IMG/VR virus record: IMGVR_UViG_3300009702_000797
Span: 1-29,884 of that record
Length of the DNA stretch: 29,884 nucleotides
Strand: one strand, 5' to 3'
Source of the DNA: a virus
Of the stretch, positions 1,658 to 18,914 are shown piece after piece; position 1 is the stretch's first letter; each line of letters begins with the position of its first letter. Below the pieces are notes generated by a model. It was given only the letters and a program-made list of their open reading frames with translations, was not told where the DNA came from and searched no databases. A program made the translations under genes and the position numbers.

Positions 1658-2188
1658 TTATCTTGATCCGCGAGCTTCTTGCAGTACTCGAGCGAGATTT
1701 GGGGGTGTCCAGTCACCTTTGTCTCTCATGCGAGGATTAGCGACAGGATCTCTGCGCTTCTTAGACATATTGGCACGATGAACTTCTACTAGAGAAGCAG
1801 CGATAGGCATATCGAAGGTACGGATAGATCCCAATACAACATACAGAAGATCAACGAGGCCATCCAACAGATCTGTTTCATCTCCTGCTGATAGAGCTTC
1901 GCACACTTCTGCGAACTCTTCAGATATCAGGTACAATCTATACAGACGATCATCCTTTCTACGTTGTTGCGTTGTGGCCATTCTTTCTATAAAGCGCGCA
2001 GTGTATCGCAGACGGATGGATATGTCATCAATCATATCGATGACAGACGACTCGATCTTGCCAGATTGTGCGTGTTGTTCGAGCCTCTTAGCAGAAAATC
2101 CATTGCGATCGTGGAATTCGTCGAGCATGCTCTCAAGATGTGTCAGGCAGAAAGCACGAATTTCTTGCAGCCCTTCAGTGGTGGCCAT
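1658..2188 (-). CDS. MazG-like / phosphoribosyl-ATP pyrophosphohydrolase-like NTP pyrophosphohydrolase
   Basis: The 176-residue form starting at ATG 2188 is chosen because TAATG joins it to the primase stop and AGAAGGAGAACC supplies a ribosome site; an in-frame extension to 2374 lies inside the primase gene. Residues 85-150 carry the all-alpha NTP pyrophosphatase signature: EEFAE (90-94) and DGLVD (109-113), which would hold Mg2+, then LLYVVLG and EVHRANMSK (135-143), a block typical of phage-encoded members of this fold. Such enzymes hydrolyse nucleoside triphosphates to monophosphates and pyrophosphate. The N-terminal 80 residues are helical and not recognised. Beside primase and helicase, a role in nucleotide-pool control or in lowering host alarmone levels is plausible; the substrate cannot be read from sequence. 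Confidence 0.8.
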   Translation of the reverse strand: MATTEGLQEIRAFCLTHLESMLDEFHDRNGFSAKRLEQHAQSGKIESSVIDMIDDISIRLRYTARFIERMATTQQRRKDDRLYRLYLISEEFAEVCEALSAGDETDLLDGLVDLLYVVLGSIRTFDMPIAASLVEVHRANMSKKRRDPVANPRMRDKGDWTPPNLARVLQEARGSR

Positions 2189-5061
2189 TAGAATGGTTCT
2201 CCTTCTGGTTCTTTCAGCCTCATGCTTCGCAACGAATCGCTCTGTTCTAGCCGCTTCAACAATGCGATGAATGCAGGAGACTTTACATATGAGCGGCCCT
2301 TCCGTACAATAGCACGTTTGCGCACAAAGAAAGACTGTATTCTTTGTGCTTCTTCTCTGTCCGTATCGCACCAATCACAGAAATCAGAAGGCACTATGGA
2401 ACTTGTACAGAGCATGCTCTGTACAAAATCTAAAGGATACGACAAAGAAGTGATCTTCCGCTTTATCTCCTGCTCATCGCCAAGAAGAGAACTAGTGCGT
2501 TCGCTTTCAGAATACGCATCATATCCGAAGTGATCTGAGGAATACATACTCCTCAGATAAGTCACAGCGTATCTGACGTGTTCTGGCCTAACCACAAGAC
2601 GGTGCATATTATCTGTAGAAAACAGCCGAGCAGCTAGAGCAGCGGCCATTCGGGCCAACTTATGTTTAGTCGTGCCTTTGTCTAGGAGAGGCATAGAGTC
2701 AGAGAATTGAAGCACCAACTTTTCTGCTTCATCTAGTACTGCATCACTTGTCTCATCGAGAAAATCTATATCTTCATGGTGGCGTGTCCAAGACCACAAC
2801 ACCAATCGGCGACAAAGTTCAGCAGAGAATTTAGGTACGCCAATCTGTTTCCTTGACGACTTCTTGATCTCTTTATCATCTATCTCTTCTGATGAAACCA
2901 GCACGGCGAAGTCAAAACGACGTATGTCTTCAAGAGAACCCATAAGTTCGCGTATGACTTCACAACCATAAGAATATGACGATAAGGGCCTGTCTGATCT
3001 CGGATTAGATAGGAACACCAAGCGCGTACGAGCATGTGTCTTTCGCCTTTCTATCTTAGGTATTTCTGCTATGCCTGAAGATCTCATATCTGTCAACTTG
3101 CCTATGATCTCAACAGGAGCACCTTTGACTTCTTCTAAGACCACTAGTCTCTTATCGTGCGTAGGGATGAGGCCCCACACCACAAACCATCTCTTGCCTA
3201 TATTCTCTAGGCCACCCACTAGGCCAGCTACGGAAGCATTCTTACAGTCTACTCGTTCTCCTAGTCCGTAGTGACCCATCAAGCGTATGGCCGTTTCGGA
3301 TTTCCCCTGAGAAGAATCTCCGCATATAAGAGTATTGATCCATCCCTTCTCTACTCGCCCCCACAAGGGAATGAACAAAGGTGAATGATAGGTCAAGTCT
3401 ATGGCGAGGTGTAGATCTTGTCTTTGAAATATCCTCGTGACATTCCTCGATAGATCTGAGTATATTTCTCGCAACTTTTCGGCCACTAATTCTTCTGATC
3501 GCCCCGCTTGAAACAAACATAATTCCTCTAACTGTTCGTCATCTGGTTGAAAGGTAGACAAGCTGTCATCGGTCAAGGCTGTGCGATCTGAGATGAATAC
3601 AGATTGTTGGGACGATGGCGAAGGATACGTTCTACCTTGTAACTGATAGAGCGCGTTGGATTCTGGCGCATCTCCTACCACAAGCGCTGGCTGTACAACT
3701 GGGTCGCTGGCATCAGCGCCCAAAGATACTTCGGGCGACAATCTGACGTCCCACACATTGTAGTGTTCCCTTACATTAGCCATGCGCACGGATCGACACA
3801 CAGGAATACCTAAAGATTCTCGTACAGCATCCTTCTGTGCTTTGCGAGACGTGTTCACCATTTCTAAGATGCCTCTGCTCGTAGAATGGATGACCATCTC
3901 TACGAGACCCTTGTCATCTGGATCCTTCGTCAATACAGGGCACTCATGACAGTTAGGCTGATCTCTGGTGCAAGACAAGGCAACCCTCTTAGCCACCAGG
4001 TATGGATTGCTGTCAAGTGCCACTATCTGTCCTACAGTGCGCAGCTTCTTTCCTACACGAGAAGCCTGGGATACTTCTGTGAGAGAAACATCTTCCGGCT
4101 CAGCGGTCTCGTCGAACTTCAGATCTAGCTCTTCAGGCTTCCACTCTAGAGCTGTTTCTTGTGCGCTTAGAAAATCTGTATCCGTCGCGCCCTCCATCGC
4201 CACCCAATCATTTATGTCTCCCTTAGTGTACTTTTCTGTGTCTAGTGGCAGATCTACGATAAAGACTTTCTGGCAGTGATGATAGATCTGAGCTGCTACA
4301 GCGCGTGCACCTTTCTTTCCTCCGTAGTCTACATCGAAACAAATATAGACCACCTTGTCTTTCATCTTCTTGGAGAAGAGTCCGTCCCAAGATCCTTCAC
4401 TACCTGTAACAGAAACAGCACCTACACCATGAGCATTCAAGAGGCGAGAAGCAACAATCGCTTTCATCTCTCCACCACAAATCCAGATGGTGTTGTAGGA
4501 CAAGTCCTCCTGATTGTACAATCTAGGCTGTCCGTATCCCCGTTCATTCCGCATCTTCTCTTTACCTGGAGCACCCGGCAGATATTTCCGTATATTCACG
4601 CATCTAGATTTGTCGTCATACACAGGTATGGTGATACGCGGACCCGACATGCCCAAGCGGAATCTTCTGATATCTTCTTCCAGCACACCCCGATCTTTCA
4701 ATGCCTGACGCAGAGGTCCGTCGTCTAAAAGCAGCTTCTCATGATACTCCTCTACTCGGGCTTGCGAGATCGTCTTTACAATCTCTATGTCGTATCTGTC
4801 GCAAAGATCATACACAACAACTGATCGCTCTGTGTTTGTGATCAGAGCTATGAGAGTTGCTATGTCTCCCTTCGCACCACAGTTAGCAGCATGACAACAC
4901 CACAAGTTATTATCAGTGTTCAAACTAGCAGAAGGAGATGTATCTTCATGCGCTGGGCATCGGAAGGATACTTCGCAGCTTCCTGCGGAGCTCCATTCTA
5001 AGCCCAAGCGATCTAATTCTGCTAAGGCGCTCACTCTAGTCAAGTCGAGTTTAGCAGGCAT
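2188..5061 (-). CDS. Primase (CHC2 zinc finger plus Toprim) fused to MCM-like AAA+ helicase
   Basis: This is a 957-residue replication protein. Residues 35-66 form a CHC2-type primase zinc finger (C35, H38, a Cys/His group at 55-57, C61, then GAKGD). Toprim motifs follow: GGEMK at 196-200 and CFDVD at 241-245. Residues 338-440 resemble the MCM OB-fold region, with an embedded cysteine cluster (C364, C371, C374). The AAA+ part has Walker A GDSSQGKSET (581-590), a Walker B-like LVVLEE (639-644), sensor 1 LSNP (684-687) and RRFD (714-717), which matches the MCM arginine-finger motif SRFD. This is unlike the RecA-fold helicase of T7 gp4. It likely primes and unwinds phage DNA at the fork. A hairpin with a U-tract lies directly before its ATG. 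Confidence 0.85.
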   Translation of the reverse strand: MPAKLDLTRVSALAELDRLGLEWSSAGSCEVSFRCPAHEDTSPSASLNTDNNLWCCHAANCGAKGDIATLIALITNTERSVVVYDLCDRYDIEIVKTISQARVEEYHEKLLLDDGPLRQALKDRGVLEEDIRRFRLGMSGPRITIPVYDDKSRCVNIRKYLPGAPGKEKMRNERGYGQPRLYNQEDLSYNTIWICGGEMKAIVASRLLNAHGVGAVSVTGSEGSWDGLFSKKMKDKVVYICFDVDYGGKKGARAVAAQIYHHCQKVFIVDLPLDTEKYTKGDINDWVAMEGATDTDFLSAQETALEWKPEELDLKFDETAEPEDVSLTEVSQASRVGKKLRTVGQIVALDSNPYLVAKRVALSCTRDQPNCHECPVLTKDPDDKGLVEMVIHSTSRGILEMVNTSRKAQKDAVRESLGIPVCRSVRMANVREHYNVWDVRLSPEVSLGADASDPVVQPALVVGDAPESNALYQLQGRTYPSPSSQQSVFISDRTALTDDSLSTFQPDDEQLEELCLFQAGRSEELVAEKLREIYSDLSRNVTRIFQRQDLHLAIDLTYHSPLFIPLWGRVEKGWINTLICGDSSQGKSETAIRLMGHYGLGERVDCKNASVAGLVGGLENIGKRWFVVWGLIPTHDKRLVVLEEVKGAPVEIIGKLTDMRSSGIAEIPKIERRKTHARTRLVFLSNPRSDRPLSSYSYGCEVIRELMGSLEDIRRFDFAVLVSSEEIDDKEIKKSSRKQIGVPKFSAELCRRLVLWSWTRHHEDIDFLDETSDAVLDEAEKLVLQFSDSMPLLDKGTTKHKLARMAAALAARLFSTDNMHRLVVRPEHVRYAVTYLRSMYSSDHFGYDAYSESERTSSLLGDEQEIKRKITSLSYPLDFVQSMLCTSSIVPSDFCDWCDTDREEAQRIQSFFVRKRAIVRKGRSYVKSPAFIALLKRLEQSDSLRSMRLKEPEGEPF

Positions 5062-5093
5062 AAAACAACCCTGAGACTTTCATCCCAGGGTTG
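5062..5093 (-). terminator. Hairpin with U-tract directly before the primase start (terminator or attenuator)
   Basis: On the minus strand CAACCCTG and CAGGGTTG form an 8-bp perfect stem, extended to 11 bp by GGA pairing with TCT (one G-U), with a 6-base loop. TTTT follows at once and then the primase ATG at 5061. It sits after the stop of the ssDNA-binding-like gene (5105), so it looks like an intrinsic terminator that lets part of the transcription through. The only purine-rich stretch that could serve the primase as a Shine-Dalgarno (CAGGG) is inside the stem, so translation could also be gated. Confidence 0.65.
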
Positions 5094-5104
5094 CGAGCAT
5101 CGCA

Positions 5105-5932
5105 TCACATGTCCACAGGCTCATCCACAACAGCACGATGCTCTCGCGCAACTTCCTCCTTGGACTCTTCCTCAATGACCATCAATTTCTCAGCATGCTT
5201 CTGAGAAATCGCCTTGTACATCTCACAGTATGTGTCGACCTCTTCTGGCGATATGAACAAAGGATCACCGTCTTCAGGATCTGAGAAGTCTAAGCCCCAC
5301 CACTTCTTATCTGCGCTCGGCTCTCGAAACGCTGAACGAATCTGCCAGACCTGGCCCCACATAGGCTCTCCACGCATCTTCACAGCACTGTTGAAGTTTG
5401 TGCCCTGATAGAATTCTCCGACTTGAAACTGCATTGCAGCCATGGTGTCGTGGAACTTTTCGTTGTGATACAAAGCAACAATGTAGTTGAATCTCTGGAT
5501 GTACGTGAAACACATCGCCTTGGGGCGATCTTCTTGTCCGGGATACACCTCTTTCCGTTTATCAGGCAACATGCACCGTCTCGCAAGAGGTGAATACGGA
5601 TCGAGCGTATGCTCTACAGTGAGAGGCAGTTCGGTATCCCTGAGATCACTGCGCTTGTAGTAGTCCACCCAGAAAAAGATCGGCACAACGAGAAACGGTT
5701 CTTCAGGAGTGGCCAGTCGTTGATCCCCTGGTCGCAGAATAACAGCACCATCCCCTCCGACGTTCTTCTTCAATGTTCCGTCGGACGTGCCTTGTATGAC
5801 CTTCAATCTTGGCAGAACAACGTGTTGTGACACTGCTTCCAGTGTGTTGTCTTCTGTGTAAGATTGAAGATGCGCAGGCACATTGCTGCGAACCTTGGTG
5901 ATCTCTTTGTCTCGCGCCGCTGCTTTCGCCAT
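5105..5932 (-). CDS. Candidate phage ssDNA-binding-type replication/recombination protein
   Basis: The start at ATG 5932 (275 residues) is preferred because AGGAG lies 8 bases upstream; an in-frame ATG at 6067 would sit far inside the previous gene. The N-terminus is charged and is followed by VVLPRLKVIQG, then a beta-rich body with LVVPIFFWVDYY, and in the second half FYQGTNFNSAVKMRG, WGQVWQIRSA and WWGLDF. The C-terminus is strongly acidic. A short PRLKxxQG opening, a beta-rich core and an acidic tail are what I associate with a widespread phage protein encoded next to helicase and primase genes and thought to bind single-stranded DNA. The functional assignment rests on this pattern and on position, not on a catalytic motif. 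A hairpin with a U-tract follows the gene, consistent with a high-copy product. Confidence 0.5.
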   Translation of the reverse strand: MAKAAARDKEITKVRSNVPAHLQSYTEDNTLEAVSQHVVLPRLKVIQGTSDGTLKKNVGGDGAVILRPGDQRLATPEEPFLVVPIFFWVDYYKRSDLRDTELPLTVEHTLDPYSPLARRCMLPDKRKEVYPGQEDRPKAMCFTYIQRFNYIVALYHNEKFHDTMAAMQFQVGEFYQGTNFNSAVKMRGEPMWGQVWQIRSAFREPSADKKWWGLDFSDPEDGDPLFISPEEVDTYCEMYKAISQKHAEKLMVIEEESKEEVAREHRAVVDEPVDM

Positions 5933-5934
5933 GT

Positions 5935-6492
5935 CTATTCTCCTAGAGGTGTACCTGTCTTTTTCCGGATCGTCAGCGTGTGGACTTTCTTCATAGCACC
6001 AGAAGATACGGGGATCTTCTTCCCCTGTGCAAGTCGCTCGTCCACCCATTCTCCTAGTCTCTTCCAATGTACTGCCAAGGGCATTCTGCTATCCACGGGC
6101 ACACCCAGCTTTGTCATCATGATGTCGAAGGCTTCCGAGCCATACTTAGGGGGATTGATCCTGGTGGTCAGCCCGACAGTACCTGTTCCAAGTTGTCCTT
6201 TCACGGTTAGCTCATTGTCATCTCCTCTCGCTATGGCGATAGACGTTCTGCGCAAGCCCACTATCAGTGTAAACAGTTCGTAGAGCTTGTTACTTTCTTT
6301 GCGCAATTCTTCTGACTTCTCGCGTAGAAGGCGCACTCCTAAAGCAAGATCCACAGATTGTGTGTCCGTGTACTCGCCCTCTCGACAACGATCTCGCACC
6401 ACGCAATAGTGATCGTATATGTCTATCCAAAGACGATACATCTCTCTATTCAGAGACACCATTTTGTCTATGTCTTCGTGTGAATAGTTCAT
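5935..6492 (-). CDS. Conserved hypothetical phage protein of the replication module (185 residues)
   Basis: ATG 6492 overlaps the upstream stop by four bases, which decides the start over an upstream in-frame codon at 6510. The first 90 residues are charged and helical with a likely coiled coil (REKSEELRKESNKLYELF). Then follow a short basic segment, GTGTVGLTTRINPPKYGSEA, and a C-terminal part with LAVHWKRLGEWVDERLAQGKK and a final beta strand HTLTIRKK. Proteins with this plan (helical front, a Gly-Thr-rich turn, 'hW..l..w......G..lP' near the end) are common beside phage helicase and primase genes, but no function is known to me. No membrane segment or signal peptide. Two bases separate it from the next gene's ATG, and the AGGAG for that gene is in its last codons. 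Confidence 0.65.
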   Translation of the reverse strand: MNYSHEDIDKMVSLNREMYRLWIDIYDHYCVVRDRCREGEYTDTQSVDLALGVRLLREKSEELRKESNKLYELFTLIVGLRRTSIAIARGDDNELTVKGQLGTGTVGLTTRINPPKYGSEAFDIMMTKLGVPVDSRMPLAVHWKRLGEWVDERLAQGKKIPVSSGAMKKVHTLTIRKKTGTPLGE

Positions 6493-6842
6493 GAGAAAGA
6501 GTCGACACAAGGGTGTTCGTTGTTGAAAAGTCGTTTTCTGAAGTATTTGTTTCTCTTAGCCTCGAATAACAGCACATGAAGAGATTGATGATAGCGATGC
6601 GCAAACATTCCCGCCGCAAAGCACAATAGAGTGACTCCCGTCATATGCCCTGTCAGACATATATTATCTGTTTCTGGCTCATACAGCTGTTCGGCTAATC
6701 TCTCGGAGATTTGTTCCAACAGCATTTCAGTGTCGAAGAACTTGATATCTTCGTCTGGGGGATACAGCTCTATGATGTGTCCCCAATTCTCTAGATCTGT
6801 ATAGTCGTATCTTTCGTTTTTCTGTAGCACAAACGTCTTCAT
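6489..6842 (-). CDS. Conserved hypothetical phage protein (117 residues)
   Basis: The ATG at 6842 shares ATGA with the stop of the helicase gene, and the stop shares ATGA with the next start, so it is locked into a coupled chain. The central part DNICLTGHMTGVTLLCFAAGMF followed by LHVLLFEAKRNKYFRKRL looks like an alpha/beta unit with a glycine turn after a strand. This resembles small phage proteins of the style 'D.lvltG.p....l.a........v.lL.wd....y' found near replication genes. The hydrophobic segment is short and interrupted, so I do not call it a membrane protein. Function is unknown. Confidence 0.6.
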   Translation of the reverse strand: MKTFVLQKNERYDYTDLENWGHIIELYPPDEDIKFFDTEMLLEQISERLAEQLYEPETDNICLTGHMTGVTLLCFAAGMFAHRYHQSLHVLLFEAKRNKYFRKRLFNNEHPCVDSFS

Positions 6843-8884
6843 GATTCCTCCGTGTCTATGTCAGATACAGCTTTCAGAATTCCTCGTACATCCTGCACGG
6901 CTAAGGCGTGCAGTCTCTTCGCCGTCACTCTTGCGCGTATTTCTTCATCAATAGTGCCCGGAATCATGAGGTCAATGATCTGCACCGGCATCTTCGTTCC
7001 CATGCGATGCGCACGCGCTTCTGCCTGAGAACGCTCTATAGCCGACCAGGTCTGGCTGAAGAATACTTCCGTGGCTGTATATGTACTCTGTTCACTATTC
7101 CCTGGTTGATAGCCCAACAGATTCAAGCCCTCTCCCGCACACCGTGGATTCCCGACAAAGACGCGACATTTAGGATCATTGTTATATTTGTACACAGCTT
7201 CTTCGCGCTCTTTTTCACTGGTTTGTCCATGATAGCAGACATGGCCTATATCATGCGATGTCAGCGCCTCAGATATGGCTTCTATGTCTGGCACCCAACA
7301 GGCCCACACAATCATCTTCGCTTCTGGCAGTCTATCCTCGTCTAAAAGAATCTCATTCACCAGGGCTTCTATCTTCGGATTGAGACCTGGGATTATGCGC
7401 AATTCACCCGCAGCTAATGTTCGTCCATCTTCGTCCTTCACCGGATCTGTGCGATAATGGCCAGATGTAATCTGTGAAAGCCGCAGCAACCTGGTGAGTA
7501 TATTTTCTACAGATACAGTATCATCTTGTTCTATCAGGGTAGACAACTCCGCGACCAGTCTCTGTGCGACAGCATTGTACACACTACTTTGCGTCTTGGT
7601 CATAGAAACTTCGTGGATGGAATAAGTCTTATCTGGCAGATCGAGTCCGGCCTCTTTCTGGCTACACACGAAAGACATCCTTGCCAGTCGCTCATGTAGC
7701 AGAGGAATATTTCTATGCCGTAACAATTTCTCCACACCTCTACCGGTGCTCTTGTACACACCATAGAACTTGCGGAATCGTTCTCGACTCAAGAATCCTG
7801 ACGCGCCTTCTCCCAGATATTCGAGTTGGGACCATAAGTCATTCAGACTGTTCGCAACAGGTGTACCAGTCAATACCAATCTTTGCTGACCTGCGTCTCT
7901 CAGCGCATGTGCTGCCAAGGTGCGTTGAGCGCGTGCTCCTTTTATTTTATGCGATTCGTCTAGAACTATCAAGTCCCAAGGCACCATGTTCAATGCCTGT
8001 AAAGTGGTCGGCATGGAATCATATGACATGATGGCCACACCATATTTGCAGTCGCTTTCTTGTCTCACAACATCTCGCAGAATCTTAGTGCGAGACAGTG
8101 GACCACCACGCATGACCGCCACTTTCCCATCTTCGGTAGCGAAACGATGAAATTCAGTTCGCCAGTTTGCTCGCACTTGTCCTGGACATATAATGAGCAC
8201 TCTATAGAGCCCTTCTCTCTGTTCTTTGCGATACAAACCACGTGATTTGCGAGACGCTTCTAAGCACACCCTGGCGATCACAGTGTATGTCTTGCCTACA
8301 CCTTGTTCCATGAACAAAGCAAAGTATTCTTGTTCTAATGAAGCCAATAAGCCTACTCGTTGTGCACCAGTCATCTGCATGTCGGAGTCTGGATGCTCAT
8401 AGAAGTCGTCGGGCATGTCAGGAACAATGCGTTCATTGCTCCAGTCTCGCAGCACCTTGGCAGACACACTTGTGGCCAGAAAGCGAGTAAGAAGATACAG
8501 ATACATATTCTCTGCATGCTGGTCGTAGAACACAAGACGATTCGCTATCTCTGTTCCCTCATCTGTTCGTCTTGTATTCCAAGCGTGATGAAGAATAAGA
8601 GCAGACACATCTGTGCCTGCTATCTGAAGGCGCCCACCAGTCAATCGTTTGCACTCTGGCAGTCTGGAGGGCAATGCGACCTGCGCTGTGTAGGATGGAA
8701 GCAGCCTATCGTCAGAAGAAAACGGGCGCGCGACGAAGTTCGTGAAAGTGTCGTCCATTTCTAGAAATAGACGGTCGTTGTCTGATAAGTGTAGAGGTTC
8801 CAGCAGCTTCTTCGTCGCTGGACAAAGTGGCTGTATCACGTTCTCGCTCAGGCGATGCAATCTGGTTACAAGGGCATCGTTCAC
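6839..8884 (-). CDS. SNF2-family DNA helicase/translocase
   Basis: The product has 681 residues; start is GTG 8884, with GGAG 8 bases upstream and a strong promoter about 40 bases before. Superfamily 2 motifs appear in order: MTGAQRVG (Q/motif 0 region, about 171-178), GVGKT (Walker A, 195-199), LIVLDESHK (DEAH-type Walker B, 305-313), LVLTGTP (motif III, 336-342), VGNPRCAGEGLNL (motif V) and QAEARAHRMG (motif VI, about 620-629). This is the SNF2 arrangement found in many phage replication modules. The first 165 residues are not recognised. It probably moves along double-stranded DNA using ATP, in replication, recombination or displacement of bound proteins. It is the first gene after the promoter and heads the replication operon. 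Confidence 0.9.
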   Translation of the reverse strand: MNDALVTRLHRLSENVIQPLCPATKKLLEPLHLSDNDRLFLEMDDTFTNFVARPFSSDDRLLPSYTAQVALPSRLPECKRLTGGRLQIAGTDVSALILHHAWNTRRTDEGTEIANRLVFYDQHAENMYLYLLTRFLATSVSAKVLRDWSNERIVPDMPDDFYEHPDSDMQMTGAQRVGLLASLEQEYFALFMEQGVGKTYTVIARVCLEASRKSRGLYRKEQREGLYRVLIICPGQVRANWRTEFHRFATEDGKVAVMRGGPLSRTKILRDVVRQESDCKYGVAIMSYDSMPTTLQALNMVPWDLIVLDESHKIKGARAQRTLAAHALRDAGQQRLVLTGTPVANSLNDLWSQLEYLGEGASGFLSRERFRKFYGVYKSTGRGVEKLLRHRNIPLLHERLARMSFVCSQKEAGLDLPDKTYSIHEVSMTKTQSSVYNAVAQRLVAELSTLIEQDDTVSVENILTRLLRLSQITSGHYRTDPVKDEDGRTLAAGELRIIPGLNPKIEALVNEILLDEDRLPEAKMIVWACWVPDIEAISEALTSHDIGHVCYHGQTSEKEREEAVYKYNNDPKCRVFVGNPRCAGEGLNLLGYQPGNSEQSTYTATEVFFSQTWSAIERSQAEARAHRMGTKMPVQIIDLMIPGTIDEEIRARVTAKRLHALAVQDVRGILKAVSDIDTEES

Positions 8885-8985: not shown

Positions 8986-9951
8986 CTATAGGTCGTCATC
9001 TCCCGCTACTGCATTCAGCGCTTTCCAGACAACACCATCAGAAACATACAACCAATCATCTGTAATCTCGGTTCCCGGATCCCCCGCATTGCCATCTGTT
9101 ACAGCAACCATACACCATGGCCAATCCGCAGGTGCATAAGAAGCGATCATTTGTGCACGAGTCTTCTTAGGCACAGGGAATGGTTTCGTCAGAGCGTCTA
9201 GCACTATGCTCAAATTCGCTTCGTGTATCACACCCCAGCCTGGTACCGAAACGTCCAGAGCAGTGTCAATACCAGATACGTCGGTTCGTGTTCCTAGACC
9301 TGGCATGCTGGTGCCGAGTCCTGCGTTTGTTCCACTCATGGACCACCATCTAGTGGTAGGCCCTGCGCCTATTCCGCCGAGATCAGAGCTGTATGTGCCT
9401 ACACTTTGCAGACTCAATACAGACGCAAGAGAATAATTCCAGTCAGAATAGAGGGGAACATCTGTCGTCATATCCAGATAGTCTACTATTCTCAGAGGCT
9501 GCGTGTCTAGCATTTGGCGCACTAGAGAGAATTGTTGTCCTATCGCTGCATCCCAATTCCCCTGCCCGACTGAGATGCGATAGACATCCGCCGGCAGTAC
9601 TTGTTTAGGCACCACCACAGTTCCGAAATCAGAATCTGTGGATGTACCCGTGACGGCCACCCACTTGAATGAATCTGCGCTGAAGACATTTCCCGTTTGC
9701 CTCAATGGTATACTGCGCACGATCTGATGATCTCGAAATGTCGTGCCCCATACAGGATTCACGACCGCAGCTATGGCCCAAGGGCAAGAATTCGCAATGG
9801 GTAGTTTCGTCTCATCTGCATAGAACTGTAGGGGTATGGGATCTGAAAGAATCTGTTTGATCGCAGTCCAGTTGGCATTCAGAGCATTCTCGAATTGGGT
9901 CATGCCAGACACAATTCTTTTCATCTGTCCTAGTCTTTGCAGAGCAGCCAT
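8986..9951 (-). CDS. Tail tip or fibre protein (putative host-recognition protein)
   Basis: A 321-residue protein, last of the tail genes, starting at ATG 9951 one base after the stop of the hub gene. The first 40 residues are helical and could attach it to the tip. The middle is rich in Gly, Ser, Thr and aromatic residues without a recognised fold. Near the C-terminus are DWPWCMVAVTDGNAG, then DDWLYVSDGVVWKAL. This 'MV.VTD.......YVSDG..W..L' block is a common ending of phage tail fibre and tip proteins. Position and composition suggest receptor contact, but no enzymatic motif is seen. It is followed by the promoter region of the replication operon. Confidence 0.6.
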   Translation of the reverse strand: MAALQRLGQMKRIVSGMTQFENALNANWTAIKQILSDPIPLQFYADETKLPIANSCPWAIAAVVNPVWGTTFRDHQIVRSIPLRQTGNVFSADSFKWVAVTGTSTDSDFGTVVVPKQVLPADVYRISVGQGNWDAAIGQQFSLVRQMLDTQPLRIVDYLDMTTDVPLYSDWNYSLASVLSLQSVGTYSSDLGGIGAGPTTRWWSMSGTNAGLGTSMPGLGTRTDVSGIDTALDVSVPGWGVIHEANLSIVLDALTKPFPVPKKTRAQMIASYAPADWPWCMVAVTDGNAGDPGTEITDDWLYVSDGVVWKALNAVAGDDDL

Positions 9952-9952
9952 G

Positions 9953-12397
9953 TTACACTTCCGTCATGGTGATGGTGTGTGGTACGCCCAATAAGAACCC
10001 GCCATCAGGATTAGGACGTCTAGTCCGCAGGCGAACCTTGAAGGCAGCAGGCACAGTTGTAAAGTCTGCTAAGAGCTGAACCCGAGTGTAAGTGAAAGTT
10101 GTAACGCCAGACAATATCAAGTTCGCCCTTTTCAATACATCTGTTGTCGAAAGTATCTCTGCGAAGAAGGCGATGTCTGTGCCTGGTGTAGTCTCAGTCA
10201 CCGCAGAGTCATACGGCCGCATCCCCGCAGAATCAGGACTTCGTTCATTGGCCCAGTCCCAATTGAAGTCTATGTCTCCGCCTGCGGTTAGATAAGTATT
10301 TCGATTTCCTGGCAGTGTGCGATCTTCCACGGACATTGTTACGTCGAAGCCCGTTAGATTGCCTACAGGATATGGCACAATTGCGCGACCTAGAAGGCTG
10401 AGACTTCTAGAAGACACAGAAGAAACATCCAAACCCGCTACATTAGTCTTCCAGAAACTATTTCGATCTTGATCCATAGCGAAGTCAGATGCGGTGACTA
10501 ACTCGGCTGATTGCTTGAACATCAAGACGTCATCGTTTACACTGTGAGCTTCTCTTACATGCCCCAGCCTATCTCTCAACACGTCTTTCATCACTATAAT
10601 CGTCGCAGATTCAGCGACTAGATGCCTGAAGAACATAATCTCTCCGTTGATACTCGCTATGTATTGGCCAGATAACCACAAATCGTCACTCAGTGCTCCG
10701 CCAAACCTGTCTAGTAGATCGGACAAAGATACAGATGAACCACCATGGGGCTGAATGCGAATGTCTAACATCTCATCATCTGTTACTGCATCCACCAATT
10801 GAGCACCCGCTTGTCCGTCTATTCGTTGCACACCTTTCTGTACGAAGCTCGTATCGTCTGGGCTGTAATGAATACTTGCCTCGTCCACCGCTGTCTTCGA
10901 TCTCTGCCTTGGCACCACCACAAGAACTCGACCTTGGGCTAATGGATAAGGCAACTCTACCGGCTTGAAGGTCAAGTCCTGTCCAGGGGCTGCTGAGATG
11001 GGAGGAAGTTGACTGCCAGAATCCGCTAGTCCAGTAGAGTCAGACACTGAAAAGAAATCTGCTATTGCCGACACTTCTACAAGAGGTGTCTCGAAACTCT
11101 TCTGTATGTCTGTCACCCTGTATAAGACACTGCTGCCTGGGATCTGGAACACATGCCCAGGATCCATGCCTCTCAGAGTACGCCCTCCCCTGAAAGTAGT
11201 CGTCCTTGTGGAGATAACATCTTGCAACATTCTGACGTCTACAATGGCGCGCACTAGATCTGGATGTGTAACCGTACGGATTTCTCGTTCTTCGGTGCGT
11301 ATGAACCCTGGTTCGTTAGCACGATCATCGTCTTGTTGAAACGCATTCTTTCGATACGACCTCTTTTCGTCCGAGAACGCATACGATACACGATTCGGAA
11401 CGCGCTCTCTCAGTTGATTCGTCTTCTTTACCACACTGCTGGCGATGACGTCATCTGTCAACAAAGAAGAAGCAGGTATCCCAGATCTAACAGGAATAAC
11501 TGTCAACAGTTTCCCACTTCTCGTCAACATTAGATTCAAGTCTTGCAGCACATCAGAAATAATGTCTCCAACACTGCGTTCATCATCTACCAATATGTTG
11601 ACTGGTCGATGTTCATTTTCCAGAGTGATCCCAAGATTCTCGAATTCCGTAGCAGACACTAGACTCGGATTGATGTCTGCGCCATAAGGATAGGGAGCAG
11701 TCAGCAACATCATAACAAGATGCGCGGGATTGACCCCTGCTGATGTAGAGTCATCCAGCCAATCGTTGGATAGTGTCAATCCAGACCCACAAGTTCTAAC
11801 CGTGAGACGGAATTCGATCTGGGGCCACGTGCGTGTAGCGCCCAAATTCTTAGGACGCCACAATACAGAGCACATCAACGGCCAACGAGAGAAAATGCCG
11901 AGCCTTGTAGACGCTCCGAGAAAGTTTACAGGGCCCTGATTCTGTTGTCCCCAATGTATCTCTATGATGCCCTGTCCGGGTATTGTGACTACACTGCCTG
12001 ATGGTGTATTGAATCCACTGGTCGTATCGTTGACTATGGGATTGTCTCCAAGTTCAACACCCCACCTTTGTTTTCCGTTCACCCAGATAGCATCTATCTC
12101 ATATCCGGGGCCTAGAGACAAGATCTGCCAGGCAGATTCTTTGAAGTGTTTGGTACCTGCTCCGCCTCTTGCTCCTTTCCCTTTACCAGAACCAGAAGTC
12201 ACTTGCAGATCGCCTGCCCAACCAAAGCTCCCACCGACTCTACGTGTACCGAATACCCTGGGTATGACCGAGCCTCTTTCTGATAGATTAGTCGGTCTGT
12301 TGTCTCGTATGAGAGCCTGTTCCTTAGGCTTCTGTATGACAGAAGCAAGCGCTCCAGCACCTACGGACAATACAGCAGATAAGGCTATTTCGGCCAC
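9953..12397 (-). CDS. Large central tail hub / tail tip protein (GTA gp15- or J-like)
   Basis: Start set at GTG 12397 (814 residues), because CTGGAG stands 7-8 bases before it and the overlap with the peptidase gene is then 13 bases; an ATG at 12448 would give 831 residues with a 64-base overlap. The N-terminus is hydrophobic (about 12 to 25) and is followed by LSERGSVIPRVFGTRRVGG, the block typical of hub proteins of the lambda J and gene-transfer-agent type ('.E.G..iP.vyG..rv.G'). Gly- and Lys-rich turns follow, then a long beta-rich body with a phage-tail-hub-like middle (ERSVGDIISDVLQDLNL, GKLLTVIPVRSG). It would close the tube end and carry the tip or fibre protein encoded next. The C-terminal 300 residues may bind receptor or saccharide. 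Confidence 0.8.
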   Translation of the reverse strand: MAEIALSAVLSVGAGALASVIQKPKEQALIRDNRPTNLSERGSVIPRVFGTRRVGGSFGWAGDLQVTSGSGKGKGARGGAGTKHFKESAWQILSLGPGYEIDAIWVNGKQRWGVELGDNPIVNDTTSGFNTPSGSVVTIPGQGIIEIHWGQQNQGPVNFLGASTRLGIFSRWPLMCSVLWRPKNLGATRTWPQIEFRLTVRTCGSGLTLSNDWLDDSTSAGVNPAHLVMMLLTAPYPYGADINPSLVSATEFENLGITLENEHRPVNILVDDERSVGDIISDVLQDLNLMLTRSGKLLTVIPVRSGIPASSLLTDDVIASSVVKKTNQLRERVPNRVSYAFSDEKRSYRKNAFQQDDDRANEPGFIRTEEREIRTVTHPDLVRAIVDVRMLQDVISTRTTTFRGGRTLRGMDPGHVFQIPGSSVLYRVTDIQKSFETPLVEVSAIADFFSVSDSTGLADSGSQLPPISAAPGQDLTFKPVELPYPLAQGRVLVVVPRQRSKTAVDEASIHYSPDDTSFVQKGVQRIDGQAGAQLVDAVTDDEMLDIRIQPHGGSSVSLSDLLDRFGGALSDDLWLSGQYIASINGEIMFFRHLVAESATIIVMKDVLRDRLGHVREAHSVNDDVLMFKQSAELVTASDFAMDQDRNSFWKTNVAGLDVSSVSSRSLSLLGRAIVPYPVGNLTGFDVTMSVEDRTLPGNRNTYLTAGGDIDFNWDWANERSPDSAGMRPYDSAVTETTPGTDIAFFAEILSTTDVLKRANLILSGVTTFTYTRVQLLADFTTVPAAFKVRLRTRRPNPDGGFLLGVPHTITMTEV

Positions 12398-12843
12398 AGT
12401 ATTCTCCAGATTCTGTCTAGCTCTAGAGTTCGCAATGGAGTACAACACACTCCAATATCATTGGTAGAATGCCAAGCCATGCCTTTACGCACATCTGCGA
12501 TCATCAAGTGACTGGGCGAGATTGAAGACTCCTGAATCAACACGATGTCTGTAGGCACCAAGTCTTGCCAAGATATGCAGCGAATAGTCTTCAGAGGCCA
12601 GCGATCGTGCAAGATCTGGGACATCTTTGCCACATTCTTAGAAGTATGAAATGCAGTGTCCGGAGGAAGAGCAGGGATTCTGCTCAAATGCTTGGTCGAC
12701 AATCCCAAATATTCGTCCACGACCGCGCCCACGAATTGAAGGCAATCGACGCCTACACCTGGAGTGCACTGAGAAGGTTTGTAGGGTGTGTTCTTCCATC
12801 TGTGGACTGCGCGTATGAATCGAAGTTGGTCTTGTCTACACAC
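12385..12843 (-). CDS. Tail-associated NlpC/P60-type cell-wall peptidase
   Basis: GTG 12843 (152 residues) is preferred: GAAGGTGAG lies just upstream and the overlap with the preceding stop is 8 bases. A TTG at 12861 in the same frame would add six residues. VDCLQFVGAVVDEYLG carries the nucleophile Cys (C34) in the NlpC/P60 D-C-x-x-F-V context, and PSHLMIAD carries the catalytic His (H112). The length is typical of the tail peptidases encoded between the two hub genes in gene transfer agents and related siphophages. The enzyme would cleave peptide stems of peptidoglycan during DNA entry. Planctomycetes have thin peptidoglycan, so such an enzyme is not at odds with that host. Confidence 0.85.
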   Translation of the reverse strand: MCRQDQLRFIRAVHRWKNTPYKPSQCTPGVGVDCLQFVGAVVDEYLGLSTKHLSRIPALPPDTAFHTSKNVAKMSQILHDRWPLKTIRCISWQDLVPTDIVLIQESSISPSHLMIADVRKGMAWHSTNDIGVCCTPLRTLELDRIWRILWPK

Positions 12844-13705
12844 TGCTCTCACCTTCTTCAATCAACGGATTGTGATTGGGCGTACCGATGCCTAAACCAT
12901 TGAAGTGTATTTCATTCTGAAACCGCCTACAATCCGCAATAGTGTGACGACATCCAGGAAATACAGATACGATTTGTCCCACCCAAGATGCAGGAGGCTC
13001 TTCTTGAAGAAGCAGTTGTTCTTGCTCTACAGCGGAATTGTAGTGACGGACTCGTATGCTGACACCGTCTCTTACCAACTGTCCCGTAGAATACAGATCA
13101 GCGACATTGGTTGTTCCACCATTCTGAGTCAATGAATCCGTCAAGCCGGCTACCCTGACTACAGTATTGGGTTGGCCAAGTCCCCATAGTGTCATGATAC
13201 CCGTGCGCTCTTGCGAAACAAGATCGTACATGCAACCGATAGCATGCCCGAACTTATTCTGGCAGAACTCAGACAGGACCATAACAGCAGGAGCATCTAG
13301 TTCGGAGCGCAGATCTTCTACTTCTATCTCTAACACGCCAGGTGCGCTGAGACTATCCGAAGAAATAGACTTAGCATATCCGAAAAGAAACACTCTTCTA
13401 ACAGTGCCTGTCAAAGTCAAGTCCGACTCTTCAATCAACACAGAGACTGTTTGTCCCGGACTATCCAAGAAAGGCGACAATTCTGCGCGAGTAGCCACTC
13501 GAATGGTAGCGGAGTCTGGAGATATCCCTGCTTTCTGTCGTCCCAACATCACTTCCATTTTAGGCTCTGCGATAAACAGATCTGAATCTACTGTCAAATC
13601 CGCATTTGATCGCACCAATCGAAGAGTCTGTGTGGGTTCTCCCCATGTGAATGTCACCAGCGCAACCGGCTGGCTTGCGGGTATAACATCCAGTTGAGTG
13701 CTCAT
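12836..13705 (-). CDS. Tail hub protein of the DUF2163 / phage BR0599 type
   Basis: Here the 289-residue protein starts at ATG 13705, sharing ATGA with the stop of the upstream gene. The N-terminal two thirds is beta-rich. Then come CQNKFGHAIGC (about 148-158) and, near the end, FPGCRHTIADCRRFQN and HFNGLG. Two cysteine pairs and a closing 'GC....C..F.N..nF.G' are hallmarks of the DUF2163/BR0599 family. In gene transfer agents the equivalent protein forms the ring joining the distal tail protein to the central hub, and its four cysteines bind an iron-sulphur cluster. The four cysteines here are compatible with that. The gene order fits the family exactly. Confidence 0.8.
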   Translation of the reverse strand: MSTQLDVIPASQPVALVTFTWGEPTQTLRLVRSNADLTVDSDLFIAEPKMEVMLGRQKAGISPDSATIRVATRAELSPFLDSPGQTVSVLIEESDLTLTGTVRRVFLFGYAKSISSDSLSAPGVLEIEVEDLRSELDAPAVMVLSEFCQNKFGHAIGCMYDLVSQERTGIMTLWGLGQPNTVVRVAGLTDSLTQNGGTTNVADLYSTGQLVRDGVSIRVRHYNSAVEQEQLLLQEEPPASWVGQIVSVFPGCRHTIADCRRFQNEIHFNGLGIGTPNHNPLIEEGESSV

Positions 13706-15663
13706 GAAAGACTCGTATAGATTGTAGGCAACATAGTATTCACAACAGAGTCAGCAGACACATCTATTTCACCCACCGCTAAGTCTCCAGAGTTGAATGT
13801 CAACATAGCTCCATTCATGTCGCTGACGGCAGTAGCCCAAGCGGAAGGAGTTGCCTGGAATGTTTCACTTCCGAAACTCAACCCTATGAAATGTCCCATG
13901 ATTTGTCTGCCTGCTATGGATGCTTTGGTGGCAGTGCTGGGGAGAGTGCCGAATCCGTCGCCCATGCCTATGATGTGTGCTTCTCCGAACGTGATGGCAA
14001 ATGGAAACGCAGTCCACAACATGTTATTTGCTGCGCTGTATGCAATATCATAATCAGTGGTGCCGCTGCCGAGACCAACTGCTGCTATATCTGCCGCCAC
14101 CTTGTCCGCGTCTAGAGTCAGCGCTGTGACTACAGCTCCTCCGAACACAGCGACCACGCCTACTTCTTTCAGAAATGGTTGCCCAGGTATACGAAGTCTT
14201 TCTACCAGATCCGCGAGCAAAGCCTTCTGCTCCAGCAGTCCACTGGCTCCGATGCTAGCCGTGTTGTCAATCATGAACACTACAGCGCCAGCCGGATGCA
14301 GAAAGTTGCTGTTATCTCCGCATATGGAGAAAGCACCAAATATGCCTCCTAGGGCTATGTCTGCAATCGGGATGGAAACACTCTTTTCTTCGAGGACTTC
14401 TACGAATGACACATCTGTATGCCAATGCTCGTCCGTAGACCACACTTCTTCTAAAACATCTTCTTCGAATCGCACAAGATAAGCGAAACAAGTACGAATC
14501 ACTGTGTTGAAGCCCGGTAAAGAGCCAACTACTGTGATCACATTACCTACTTTAGATGTGATATCGTAGAAGAAAGTTCCGGATGTCGTCTGAACTGCGA
14601 TCTTGGTGTATCTGGTGAAGTCTTCATCTATCAGATCTATGAATTGACTGCCTGCTTCAAGAGTAATCTGTGTGCCAGACATAGATACAGGAATGAAGTC
14701 GTTAGTGGGAGAAAGAATCCAGAATGGCAACGTTCGCCCTGCCGCACCATCGAACAACTGGCGTAGTTTCAATCCATCAGAGCGATTGAAGAACGTAAAC
14801 GATGTAGAAGTGCGCACCTTAGAACGAGTGCCCCGAATGTTGTACACACTTGTTAGACCAATATCTATTGTTTGTATTGGCCGGGTCACGCCGACACCTT
14901 CTTGAGTAAAGTCAGACTGTAGATCAAGAATGGGGCTGCCGTCTAACAAAGTGAACCCAGGAAAGACAGAAAAGGCAGTGAGAGGATCTAGAGCTTGCGG
15001 ACCTACGGATTGATGGACTGTCAATGTCACTTCAGATACAGATTGTGTTATCAACTGTAGATCTGTATCCGATAGCGGATCACATTCTATCATCGGGACA
15101 ATCAATAGATCTGACCGTACAATTATGTCGCCTTCTTCGTGAACAACAGATGTCAGAACAGTTGCGATGTCTAGGCCCACATGAGTTTGTTGTCCTACTT
15201 GTGTGATAGCAGATACTCTGGCGAACTCGAAGGATTCTGCTCTTTCTTTGCCCTTCTCCCATTTCACCAGTGCCACCCATTGTCCTATCTGTAATCGTCG
15301 TGTCAGATGTAGATTCAGTGTAAGCGCAAGAGTATTCGCGTCTACGCGCTTCGCAGGCAATTTGTCGTTCCACAAAGGAAACACAAAGTTGGTTGTAGTG
15401 AATCTGTGAGATTGATTCAACAACACACCTATCGTGTCATCGAACATGGCTTTGAACGTAGTCTCTACACTGAGATATGGTTTCGCTAAACGACTGAACC
15501 TTTGTTCAGATTGTGTGCGCGCTGACAACAAATCTGTCGACCATCTGGTTGTCACTACTTGTCCTTCATCTCCTGAAGGACGAGGCATGACCATAAGAGC
15601 CCACAATTCTCCCGCAGAAGGGAATTGGTCAGCAGCAATAATGTCAGAGGCGATCACAGTCAT
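13702..15663 (-). CDS. Distal tail protein with C-terminal von Willebrand factor A domain
   Basis: This 653-residue protein starts at ATG 15663, sharing ATGA with the tape measure stop. Residues 1-430 are beta-rich and, by position after the tape measure and before the DUF2163 hub, should be the distal tail (Dit-like) ring protein; phrases such as RTSTSFTFFNRSDGLKLR and TLPFWILSPTNDF are typical of that group. Residues 458-653 look like a vWA domain: VVFMIDNTASIG (D466, T468, S470, the DxSxS-type MIDAS), VGVVAVFGG, LTLDADKVAADIAAV, SGTTDYD (T536, D537) and IIGMGDG (D569). vWA domains bind ligands through a metal ion. Probable job: extra contacts at the tail tip, to host surface or other tail proteins. 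The fusion is uncommon in Dit proteins as far as I know. Confidence 0.8.
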   Translation of the reverse strand: MTVIASDIIAADQFPSAGELWALMVMPRPSGDEGQVVTTRWSTDLLSARTQSEQRFSRLAKPYLSVETTFKAMFDDTIGVLLNQSHRFTTTNFVFPLWNDKLPAKRVDANTLALTLNLHLTRRLQIGQWVALVKWEKGKERAESFEFARVSAITQVGQQTHVGLDIATVLTSVVHEEGDIIVRSDLLIVPMIECDPLSDTDLQLITQSVSEVTLTVHQSVGPQALDPLTAFSVFPGFTLLDGSPILDLQSDFTQEGVGVTRPIQTIDIGLTSVYNIRGTRSKVRTSTSFTFFNRSDGLKLRQLFDGAAGRTLPFWILSPTNDFIPVSMSGTQITLEAGSQFIDLIDEDFTRYTKIAVQTTSGTFFYDITSKVGNVITVVGSLPGFNTVIRTCFAYLVRFEEDVLEEVWSTDEHWHTDVSFVEVLEEKSVSIPIADIALGGIFGAFSICGDNSNFLHPAGAVVFMIDNTASIGASGLLEQKALLADLVERLRIPGQPFLKEVGVVAVFGGAVVTALTLDADKVAADIAAVGLGSGTTDYDIAYSAANNMLWTAFPFAITFGEAHIIGMGDGFGTLPSTATKASIAGRQIMGHFIGLSFGSETFQATPSAWATAVSDMNGAMLTFNSGDLAVGEIDVSADSVVNTMLPTIYTSLS

Positions 15664-18600
15664 CGTACAGGCACCTGCAAGATGGACAACAACACAGATC
15701 TATCGTTTCGTATGGCATCTCTTAGAGCTTCTTTGCCCGCAGCAAGTATTCTAGCAGCTGTTGTTTCATCCGCCACCAGCACGTTAGGCTCCGAAGAAGA
15801 TGTAGACCTAGCTCTTCCAACCAGATTCCCGGTATTGTAGTGTGATCGCCCTGTACCATAAGAAGTAGCATATGCTGCTAAGAGTGCACGGGGTATGCGT
15901 CTCTTGTTGATAGCCGACATAATGGACGGTCCGTAATGATCTACAGCCGATCTAGAATGAATGTATTCTCCAGGTGTAGCCCGAATAGACATGCTATCTC
16001 TATTCGGTCCGCGACCCGGAAGCAAACCTCCTTCGTTGAATCCTAAGATTCCAGGGGTTCCTTTGGCCCCACCCAAGCCTGGCAAGAAGTTCAAGAATCT
16101 CGTGACCAACTGGTTGACAAAGAATTTCTGCAATGATTGAAGTATACTGCGCATTAGATCTCGAAAAGCATCTCCGATGCTAGACACATTAGCGATTGCT
16201 CTATTGGTGAAGTCGTTGAGCCCAGTTTCTGCTGCGCCACGCAGAGTGTCTTGAAAACCAGCAATTATGCTCCCAGTGGTTTCTACCGCTCTCAGACCGA
16301 TGAGATCTAACTCCAGCGCTGTCTTAGACAACGATTCCGAAAACTCTGGGAACTCGTCTTGCAGAGTCTTCAGGCCATCACGAGATGAGTTTATCGCTGA
16401 AACGAACTCTTGTAAGGAATTGCGTGCTGCACCTTGTGCTTGCGACTGAGTGAGAATATTCTGTTCGAGTTGAAGTCTTGTCAGTTCAAGAGATTCACGA
16501 TATCTGCCTTCTGCTTCTTGTGCTTTCTGCAACAACATCGTTGCCTGTTCTACGACAGATTTTCTCACCATATTCTGTCGTTCAAGCTCTAGCGTTTGTC
16601 GAGCAAAGGCAATCTCGTTGGCACTTGCACCAGCATCCTTCAGTTGTTGTATGAGAGCCAGAGACTGTTCGCTGAATTCTATAAGAGCAGCCTGTATCGT
16701 ATTTCCGCTGGCCTCAGCAGCTCGTTTCTCGATCTCTTCGAAGAGCTGATCTAGCGTATCTTGTTGCTGTTGTCGCAACTTAGCCTGCGCTTCCAATGCT
16801 GCGCGTTTCTCTTCGGCAATGTTCGCATTCGTTCTCTGAATTTCTATGTCAACAAGAGCCAATTGTTTGGTCAGTGATAATTGTTGGGACAACAGTCCAG
16901 ATGTATCTAATACAATATCAGCGCCTTCCGCTCTCGCCTTATTCTCTTCATCTATCGCTTCTCTTATCTGGTTCAATTGAAATCGCAGACTGTCTTGTTC
17001 TCTCTTCAGGATGCCCTCTTGAAGAGCCTGTCGTATCGAGAAAAATTTCTCTACAGATACTTCACCCGCTGCGAATCTTCTCTGCAAAGATTCTATCTCT
17101 AACATCTCAAGCGCGGCCAGAGAATCTTTGTCCTTTCTTGCTTCTGCGTCTCGTATATTCGCTCGCAGTTGCTGTTCTCGAAGATCTCGTAATCGCGCGG
17201 ATCTTTCTGCTTGTGCTTGAAGAGCAGCTTCTTGATTCGCAAGTTGGTCTACTTGCTCTTCTCTAGTCCTGAATCTCGCATCTGCGCGAGCAGAGAATTG
17301 TTCTTCTAACCTTATGGCATCGTCTGCATTCTGCTCTAATTGGTCTTGTGTTGTTCTGCCGATCTCAGCGATGCGATTCTTATTGCTGAAGAACAGAGTT
17401 CCGAGATCAGAGTCTATGCTCTGCAATGTTTGCTCAAGAGCTGTAGTGTCTATGCCCTTAGTCACTAGATCATTGATGCCTGCTTGTACAAGAGAGCCTA
17501 TTCCTGCATCAATCGTAGAGATAGCCGTGGCGGCAATGGTTCCAAGTTGTCTTACAGATCGCCCAGCTTTCTGCAAGACGCTGTTCAATGCACTGAATAC
17601 CAACAATGATGCAGATACTGCTACTCTTTGCACAATCAACAAAATGCTGTTGAATCGGAACCGGATATCCTCAGCAAGCAAAGAAAAGGCAGTGCGTATG
17701 GGTATAACAACAAAGCGATCTATAAGAAGGACCGTTTTTCGTAGGGTGACGACAATGCTGTCTCCAATATCCGCAAGACTGGAGAATCCATTGCGCACAT
17801 CGTCCACTATGCTCAATAATCTTCTTCCAGAATCTCCAAGCCTGTCGAATCCCCCAGACATGCTCGCAACAGCGACCAACAAAGCACCTATGCCGATCAC
17901 CAACAGACTGAATGGAAGCAGTCCCAGCCCTATTGCTGCTGCAACCGCTTGAGCAGTTGCAGATAGACTCACCATTCCCGCAGCTAGAGCACCTACCCCA
18001 GCAGATGCTAAAGCAACAGCAGCTGTAGCCAGTTTGATCACACCAACGAACAATTTCAAGACACGGCTAGAAACGGAGATGGCCACACTCAGAGCAACAA
18101 AAGAAAGTACCAGAGCGCCTAAGTCCACCCCAAGGCGAGCGATCTCCTGAAAGACAGGGGACTGCAACAGAGTGTCTAAGGAAGCCGAGAATTTCTTGAA
18201 CTTGCCGAGAAACTTGTCGAATGCTTCATTGACAATAGGTATGATGCGTATACCTATCTCTTCAAAGATGTCTCCTAATTCATTCTGCTTCTGGATGAAC
18301 GCACCGAATGGTGTCTGCGTGAGCAGAGTGGCTTGACCCCCAAACGCTTCTAACAAAGTATCGACACCATCTTTCGCAAGACGAGATTCGTCTTGCAGAA
18401 TCTTCAACTGGCCTATCCGCTCACCGAGTTCACCTGCGCGGCCAACTTGGAAAAGACCGATTGCTTTGGCTACACTCTCTGTGGGCACACCCAAAGCCGA
18501 TGCCGTATCTACCGTTGCGATTAGTGCTTTGTCAAGATCCTGAACACGGACCTTCATATTCAGCAGCAAAGCAGCCGTCTCGTTGAGAGCTTCATTTCCG

Positions 18601-18914
18601 AAAAGAGTCTTGCCTTGCAGACTATCGGTTATCTCTCTCACACGCTCGAGTTTATCAACATTTTCTCCTAATGCTGCTGCGAGCCTTCTTCTACTCTGTA
18701 TCTCCCTCTCTGCCAGTTGGATCGACTTTCTAGCCCCAGCTGTAGAGATCAACGCAGCACCCAGTTGTGCGAATCTCCCTGTAAGAGGAGCCAGCTGGGA
18801 GTTGACTGTCTTCAGTCTAGTGCTGAACCGAGCGAACGAACGATTGACACGAGACAGATTTCTCGTGATCAAGTCGTTCAACACAGCTGTGACTGTTAGT
18901 TTGCGATCTACCAC
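15660..18914 (-). CDS. Tape measure protein
   Basis: This is the longest gene in the window, encoding 1084 residues; GTG 18914 overlaps the upstream stop by seven bases. The N-terminus (LNDLITRNLSRVNRSFARFST) has the usual tape-measure opening. Residues about 262-352 are a long hydrophobic Ala/Leu/Val/Gly stretch with several possible membrane-spanning segments. Residues about 530-830 are Gln-, Glu- and Arg-rich and predicted to form coiled coils. The end has FNEGGLLPGRGPNRDSM and IRATPGEYIHSRSAVDHYG, the standard C-terminal motif (GG..pG.g..Ds....tpGE.v....AV..yG). It sets tail length during assembly, and the hydrophobic part may enter the host membrane. At about 1.5 angstrom per residue the tail would be near 160 nm. 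No peptidase domain is seen inside it. Confidence 0.95.
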   Translation of the reverse strand: MVDRKLTVTAVLNDLITRNLSRVNRSFARFSTRLKTVNSQLAPLTGRFAQLGAALISTAGARKSIQLAEREIQSRRRLAAALGENVDKLERVREITDSLQGKTLFGNEALNETAALLLNMKVRVQDLDKALIATVDTASALGVPTESVAKAIGLFQVGRAGELGERIGQLKILQDESRLAKDGVDTLLEAFGGQATLLTQTPFGAFIQKQNELGDIFEEIGIRIIPIVNEAFDKFLGKFKKFSASLDTLLQSPVFQEIARLGVDLGALVLSFVALSVAISVSSRVLKLFVGVIKLATAAVALASAGVGALAAGMVSLSATAQAVAAAIGLGLLPFSLLVIGIGALLVAVASMSGGFDRLGDSGRRLLSIVDDVRNGFSSLADIGDSIVVTLRKTVLLIDRFVVIPIRTAFSLLAEDIRFRFNSILLIVQRVAVSASLLVFSALNSVLQKAGRSVRQLGTIAATAISTIDAGIGSLVQAGINDLVTKGIDTTALEQTLQSIDSDLGTLFFSNKNRIAEIGRTTQDQLEQNADDAIRLEEQFSARADARFRTREEQVDQLANQEAALQAQAERSARLRDLREQQLRANIRDAEARKDKDSLAALEMLEIESLQRRFAAGEVSVEKFFSIRQALQEGILKREQDSLRFQLNQIREAIDEENKARAEGADIVLDTSGLLSQQLSLTKQLALVDIEIQRTNANIAEEKRAALEAQAKLRQQQQDTLDQLFEEIEKRAAEASGNTIQAALIEFSEQSLALIQQLKDAGASANEIAFARQTLELERQNMVRKSVVEQATMLLQKAQEAEGRYRESLELTRLQLEQNILTQSQAQGAARNSLQEFVSAINSSRDGLKTLQDEFPEFSESLSKTALELDLIGLRAVETTGSIIAGFQDTLRGAAETGLNDFTNRAIANVSSIGDAFRDLMRSILQSLQKFFVNQLVTRFLNFLPGLGGAKGTPGILGFNEGGLLPGRGPNRDSMSIRATPGEYIHSRSAVDHYGPSIMSAINKRRIPRALLAAYATSYGTGRSHYNTGNLVGRARSTSSSEPNVLVADETTAARILAAGKEALRDAIRNDRSVLLSILQVPVR

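Follow-up and report, generated by a model that had tools for sequence, protein, structure and literature searches.

A von Willebrand factor A domain fused to a distal tail protein, a possible metal-dependent adhesion module at the tail tip of an uncultured phage

The von Willebrand factor A (vWA) domain uses a metal to adhere and is known above all from the integrins of animals and the adhesins of bacteria; elsewhere vWA domains also act as assembly factors and intracellular adaptors. The decorations described on the distal tail proteins (Dits) of phages are mostly carbohydrate-binding modules. In the "evolved Dits" of phages infecting lactic acid bacteria, such a module lies within a loop of the Dit, and extra Dit domains of this kind are known to serve in host binding (PMC7291167). 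The solved Dit of phage JBD30, gp49, forms a trimer of subunits built from two beta-sandwich lobes each, and it also has an N-terminal arm that wraps a fibre (PMC11445458). In a search of mostly open literature, we found no description of a vWA domain in a tail, baseplate or Dit protein; the phage vWA proteins that were found were only AAA+ partners, CobT-like proteins and accessory genes.

Here we describe a Dit with a C-terminal vWA domain, encoded in a virus record of 29,884 bases (the window, by which we mean the whole stretch of DNA analyzed) that is probably incomplete. Its tail module lies on the minus strand, in the order major tail protein, tape measure, a 653-aa protein, hub, NlpC-like peptidase and central tail protein. 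The gene for the 653-aa protein (13702 to 15663) is an intact open reading frame located immediately after that for the 1084-aa tape measure protein (15660 to 18914; PHROG 3547 tail length tape measure, E value of 2e-5), and its stop overlaps the start of the hub gene at TCATGA. Neither the baseplate hub protein (289 aa, 12836 to 13705; BR0599, E value of 1.6e-6; Gp84_N, 0.0047; PHROG 778, 3e-12) nor the central tail protein (831 aa, 9953 to 12448; Phage-tail_3, PF13550, 7e-8; PHROG 1101, 3.5e-24) contains a vWA domain. The remaining gene encodes an NlpC/P60-like tail peptidase (12385 to 12861; TIGR02219, 0.0018, under the cut-off; PHROG 329, 9.5e-5). Searches by tblastn with the whole 653-aa protein or with its vWA region gave no useful relatives among phages or plasmids, and peptide-pattern scans for the Dit, the vWA domain and the portal gave no match.

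The rest of the window, also on the minus strand in the regions named here, has some features of its own. An 839-aa protein (26025 to 28544) combines matches to portal families with matches to head morphogenesis families at its C terminus, an apparent fusion of both, and the 436-aa ORF adjoining the portal gene (28546 to 29856) shows a weak match to PhoD-like phosphatases (E value of 3e-5). None of the window proteins scanned was recognized as a terminase. A 151-aa ORF (459 to 914) matched dockerin type I (E value of 9e-8) and EF-hand models, a calcium-binding repeat that is unexpected for a phage. Genes for an SNF2 helicase, Pam3 gp32-like and gp34-like proteins, a primase and a MazG-like protein (1658 to 8884) are common to the window, G001 to G003 and MW202657, with up to 48% identity, while the structural genes of the window bear hardly any likeness to theirs. 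From these sequence comparisons, we read the shared replication genes and differing structural genes as module exchange. None of these replication-module relatives matched the whole 653-aa protein, and two of them (G002 and G003) carry Dits of the same family as the window Dit, without vWA.

Both lobes of a JBD30/Chi-type Dit could be recognized in the 653-aa protein. Residues 39 to 426 (14386 to 15549, minus strand) were matched by a profile built from 61 viral-contig relatives with an E value of 4.3e-12, against 0.35 for the best shuffle, and residues 187 to 427 by PHROG 1082 ("tail assembly protein," 1e-21). In the PDB, a profile made from two relatives (G003 and G002) finds JBD30 gp49 (8rk3_U, 4.6e-63) as well as the Chi distal tail protein (8vjh_B, 4e-12), and both share the Dit core with the window protein and are devoid of vWA. 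By its sequence, the 653-aa protein is a JBD30/Chi-type distal tail protein, the lobes of which would encircle the tail tube at its end, a placement modeled on JBD30 (PMC11445458). The Dit match begins at about the first lobe, and the fibre-wrapping arm of JBD30 seems to be absent. The original prediction had envisaged up to six vWA domains at the tip; because the JBD30 Dit is trimeric with two lobes per subunit, three are probably the likelier number, judging from homology. Two other observations were made among the Dit relatives and their operons. In one contig (L012, 8646 to 10895, minus strand), the N-terminal part of the Dit, cut by the contig end, consists of near-identical 20-aa repeats (AQAVATPAGSLSVKIPLAGT), and in another (L007, 10812 to 12197, minus strand), a glycosyltransferase-like gene (PHROG 2456, 5e-5) is located within the tail operon, adjoining the hub gene.

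With all evidence combined, residues 458 to 653 (13705 to 14292, minus strand) very probably form a vWA domain. Pfam VWA_2 matched residues 461 to 551 with an E value of 2.7e-4 on the full protein and 4.5e-5 on residues 442 to 653, where the VWA model gave 0.0025; these values already allow for 24,736 models, and both matches stay under the Pfam curated cut-offs (24.5 versus 27 bits for VWA_2). The MIDAS set is complete and in order, at the very positions that the original prediction had given, with D466-N-T468-A-S470 (14254 to 14268, minus strand) as the first motif, T535/T536 in SGTTDYD (14056 to 14061, minus strand), which aligns near the GGT loop of other tail vWAs, as the second, and D569 in IIGMGDG (13957 to 13959, minus strand) as the third. 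When the domain was aligned with 12 vWA domains of viral and bacterial contigs, D466, T468, S470 and D569 fell in invariant columns, but this set was picked among many trials for an aligned third aspartate, so that the D569 column is not independent evidence. With a profile of 12 distant vWAs, the real sequence ranked first of 2,001, yet with only 9.8 bits against 7.7 for the best shuffle. Matches to PDB sequences over short stretches (Lem17 and a delta subunit) had E values of >0.05 and were taken as chance.

The AF2 model of the vWA region (mean pLDDT of 51.7 and pTM of 0.52) has a Rossmann-like alternating alpha/beta fold, which is partly suggested by the input, since the shallow alignment with the 12 vWA domains was fed to the program. 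In this low-confidence model, strands and helices follow the order expected for a vWA domain to about residue 146 of the domain, with low confidence beyond (pLDDT is low past residue 142), and by topology the three MIDAS loops are found at strand ends and helix starts. Comparison of the model with the PDB by Foldseek gave 111 matches at an E value of 0.001 or better (best, about 1e-5), and the best ones were mostly vWA chains, among them MIC2, the LapA vWFA domain and integrin and complement domains. VIA-align gave Z scores of up to 13.2, again with mostly vWA structures as the best matches. LapA, MIC2 and the integrin I domains belong to cellular rather than virion proteins. A single-sequence AF2 model of the whole protein (pLDDT of 33.4) was set aside for claims about the fold. 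The central claim of the original prediction, a vWA domain fused to a distal tail protein, is borne out by the sequence, the gene order, the MIDAS residues and the fold search, and the structure prediction proposed along with it came out as Rossmann-like, at low confidence.

The Dit/vWA fusion is real, but it has counterparts elsewhere. When viral contigs were first scanned with the DNT motif, no vWA came up, and none of the 61 Dit relatives in viral contigs carried, at its C terminus, an extension the size of a vWA domain that contained a MIDAS-like motif (three of these Dits are cut by contig ends); nor did any ORF of at least 150 codons at their loci contain such a motif. A fold search of viral models pointed to RcTitan and PaMx28. 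RcTitan gp22, encoded directly after the tape measure, belongs to the family of the window Dit and has a vWA domain inserted between the two lobes. It has full-length matches in five Titanvirus phages (86 to 100% identity), with only partial coverage in the other matching records, and the viral contig L306 shows the same arrangement. The homologues of gp22 in QH3, PaMx28, Mallos, MW2, Elanor and Bhz59 (n = 6) have 376 to 395 aa and no motif. The Dits of the Titanvirus phages, which infect Rhodobacter capsulatus, are like the window Dit in their family, in the slot after the tape measure and in joining Dit and MIDAS-bearing vWA in one polypeptide. They differ in that the vWA lies between the lobes and not at the C terminus and has DxSGS instead of DxTxS, and there is no significant similarity between the two vWAs. 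The original prediction that few Dits have such a domain holds as a proportion (0 of 61 viral-contig relatives), but five Titanvirus phages and one viral contig do pair them; the search among related phages that it proposed did find the pairing, with the vWA placed differently in the protein.

The window Dit thus resembles an evolved Dit, the extra domain of which is absent from relatives, as is the vWA motif from the Dits of the 61 relatives (three cut short). Like the evolved Dits of lactic acid bacteria phages, it has an added domain, ligand-binding in theirs (PMC7291167), but this domain is a vWA and not a carbohydrate-binding module, unlike the type described.

Other tail proteins were also found to carry vWA domains. 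In PaMx28 and QH3, one is located on the hub, with scores over the Pfam cut-offs, and it occupies the hub N terminus in both, as it does in Mallos and in Bordetella phage MW2, where one gene is already annotated as "von Willebrand factor type A." A further, weaker vWA match in PaMx28 lies in the central tail protein, the protein that contains the domain in ZS04, Elanor and Bhz59. With the PaMx28 hub vWA as the query, 20 records were matched, the majority at two places; they come from phages of Pseudomonas, Xanthomonas, Variovorax, Stenotrophomonas, Bordetella and Erythrobacter. Pamexvirus AXL1 depends on the pilus (PMC9206674), and the type IV pilus was dropped as a candidate ligand because AXL1 is not among these records. 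In L108, a vWA domain is joined to a DUF1833 minor tail protein, and in two further contigs (L088, 1200 to 4277, minus strand; L107, 6161 to 9178, plus strand) it lies within a tail protein of PHROG 376 (about 1000 aa), in our own reading, judged from its neighbours, a podophage-type tail tube protein. Large viral-contig proteins of 500 to 2200 aa with a DYTGSM-type vWA were also seen (L106, 2102 to 3616, plus strand; also L084, L091 and L096); that of L106 matched no PHROG and, by tblastn, nothing in the phage collection.

PaMx28, Mallos, QH3 and MW2 resemble the window in that a siphophage tail-tip protein encoded in the same gene neighbourhood has a vWA domain, but theirs is on the hub or the central protein and their Dit has none. 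A common recent origin of the window vWA and these other tail vWAs is unsupported, since a profile of the latter scored the window domain below the best shuffles. The presence of vWA in different positions of different proteins suggests several captures by tail proteins. The MIDAS motifs are kept in the aligned tail vWA copies, which suggests that metal binding matters for them. Tentatively, vWA could be a general metal-dependent adhesion module of phage tail tips that has been repeatedly captured and moved among Dit, hub, central and other tail proteins, binding receptors as integrin I domains do.

In the mechanism that we propose for the window phage, a complete vWA domain would have been added to the C terminus of a two-lobed JBD30/Chi-type Dit, and three copies, by analogy with JBD30, would surround the tail tip with their MIDAS sites facing outward. 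A divalent metal bound there would complete its shell with an acidic group of the ligand, most likely a host-surface protein or glycan, and the vWA domain would help the tip to hold the cell. We favor adhesion because of the recurrence of vWA in tail-tip slots, the kept MIDAS and the precedent of evolved Dits, and consider the prospects about even that the window vWA is a metal-dependent adhesion module at the tail tip that binds the host surface, the target that we favor over a phage fibre.

It is rather unlikely, but deserves weight, that the domain is an internal adaptor whose MIDAS docks a phage protein (a side fibre, the hub or the end of the tape measure) on the Dit ring, with the partner binding the host. 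Dits are commonly docking rings: the extension of the Sf11 Dit holds tailspikes (PMC12724387), and JBD30 anchors its fibres through the Dit and upper baseplate proteins (PMC11445458). The apparent absence of the fibre-wrapping arm in the window Dit would fit such a role, and so would the 321-aa gene at 8986 to 9951, of no named family, which could encode a fibre. A single conserved internal contact would, on the other hand, sit oddly with a domain that is found in the Dit, the hub, the central or other tail proteins depending on the phage, and in two copies in several of them. We consider very improbable a partnership with a MoxR-type AAA+ chaperone in tail assembly, as in the vWA/AAA+ pairs known from archaeal viruses and jumbo phages (PMC7911831, PMC7824862), where the vWA is a separate protein beside the AAA+ gene. 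Here it forms part of a structural protein, and the scanned proteins of the window (in a record that is probably incomplete) included no MoxR-like one. Equally improbable is a C-terminal region without a functional vWA, be it a different Rossmann-like domain or a vWA that has decayed and binds no metal, a reading to which the subthreshold Pfam scores, the low pLDDT toward the end of the domain and the weak separation from shuffles lend something, against the retention of every MIDAS position, the fitting order of elements and structure matches mostly to vWA entries.

The range of cells that a phage can hold is set by its tail tip. If adhesion by the window vWA is true, a metal-dependent vWA in the role of a Dit decoration would be a second solution beside carbohydrate-binding modules, and it would bring a built-in metal dependence that lends itself to simple tests. 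Since Titanvirus and PaMx28-like phages are in culture, the question can be approached without the uncultured window phage. The vWA domains in several tail-tip proteins suggest a recurring, undescribed way for phages to grip the cell or their own fibres.
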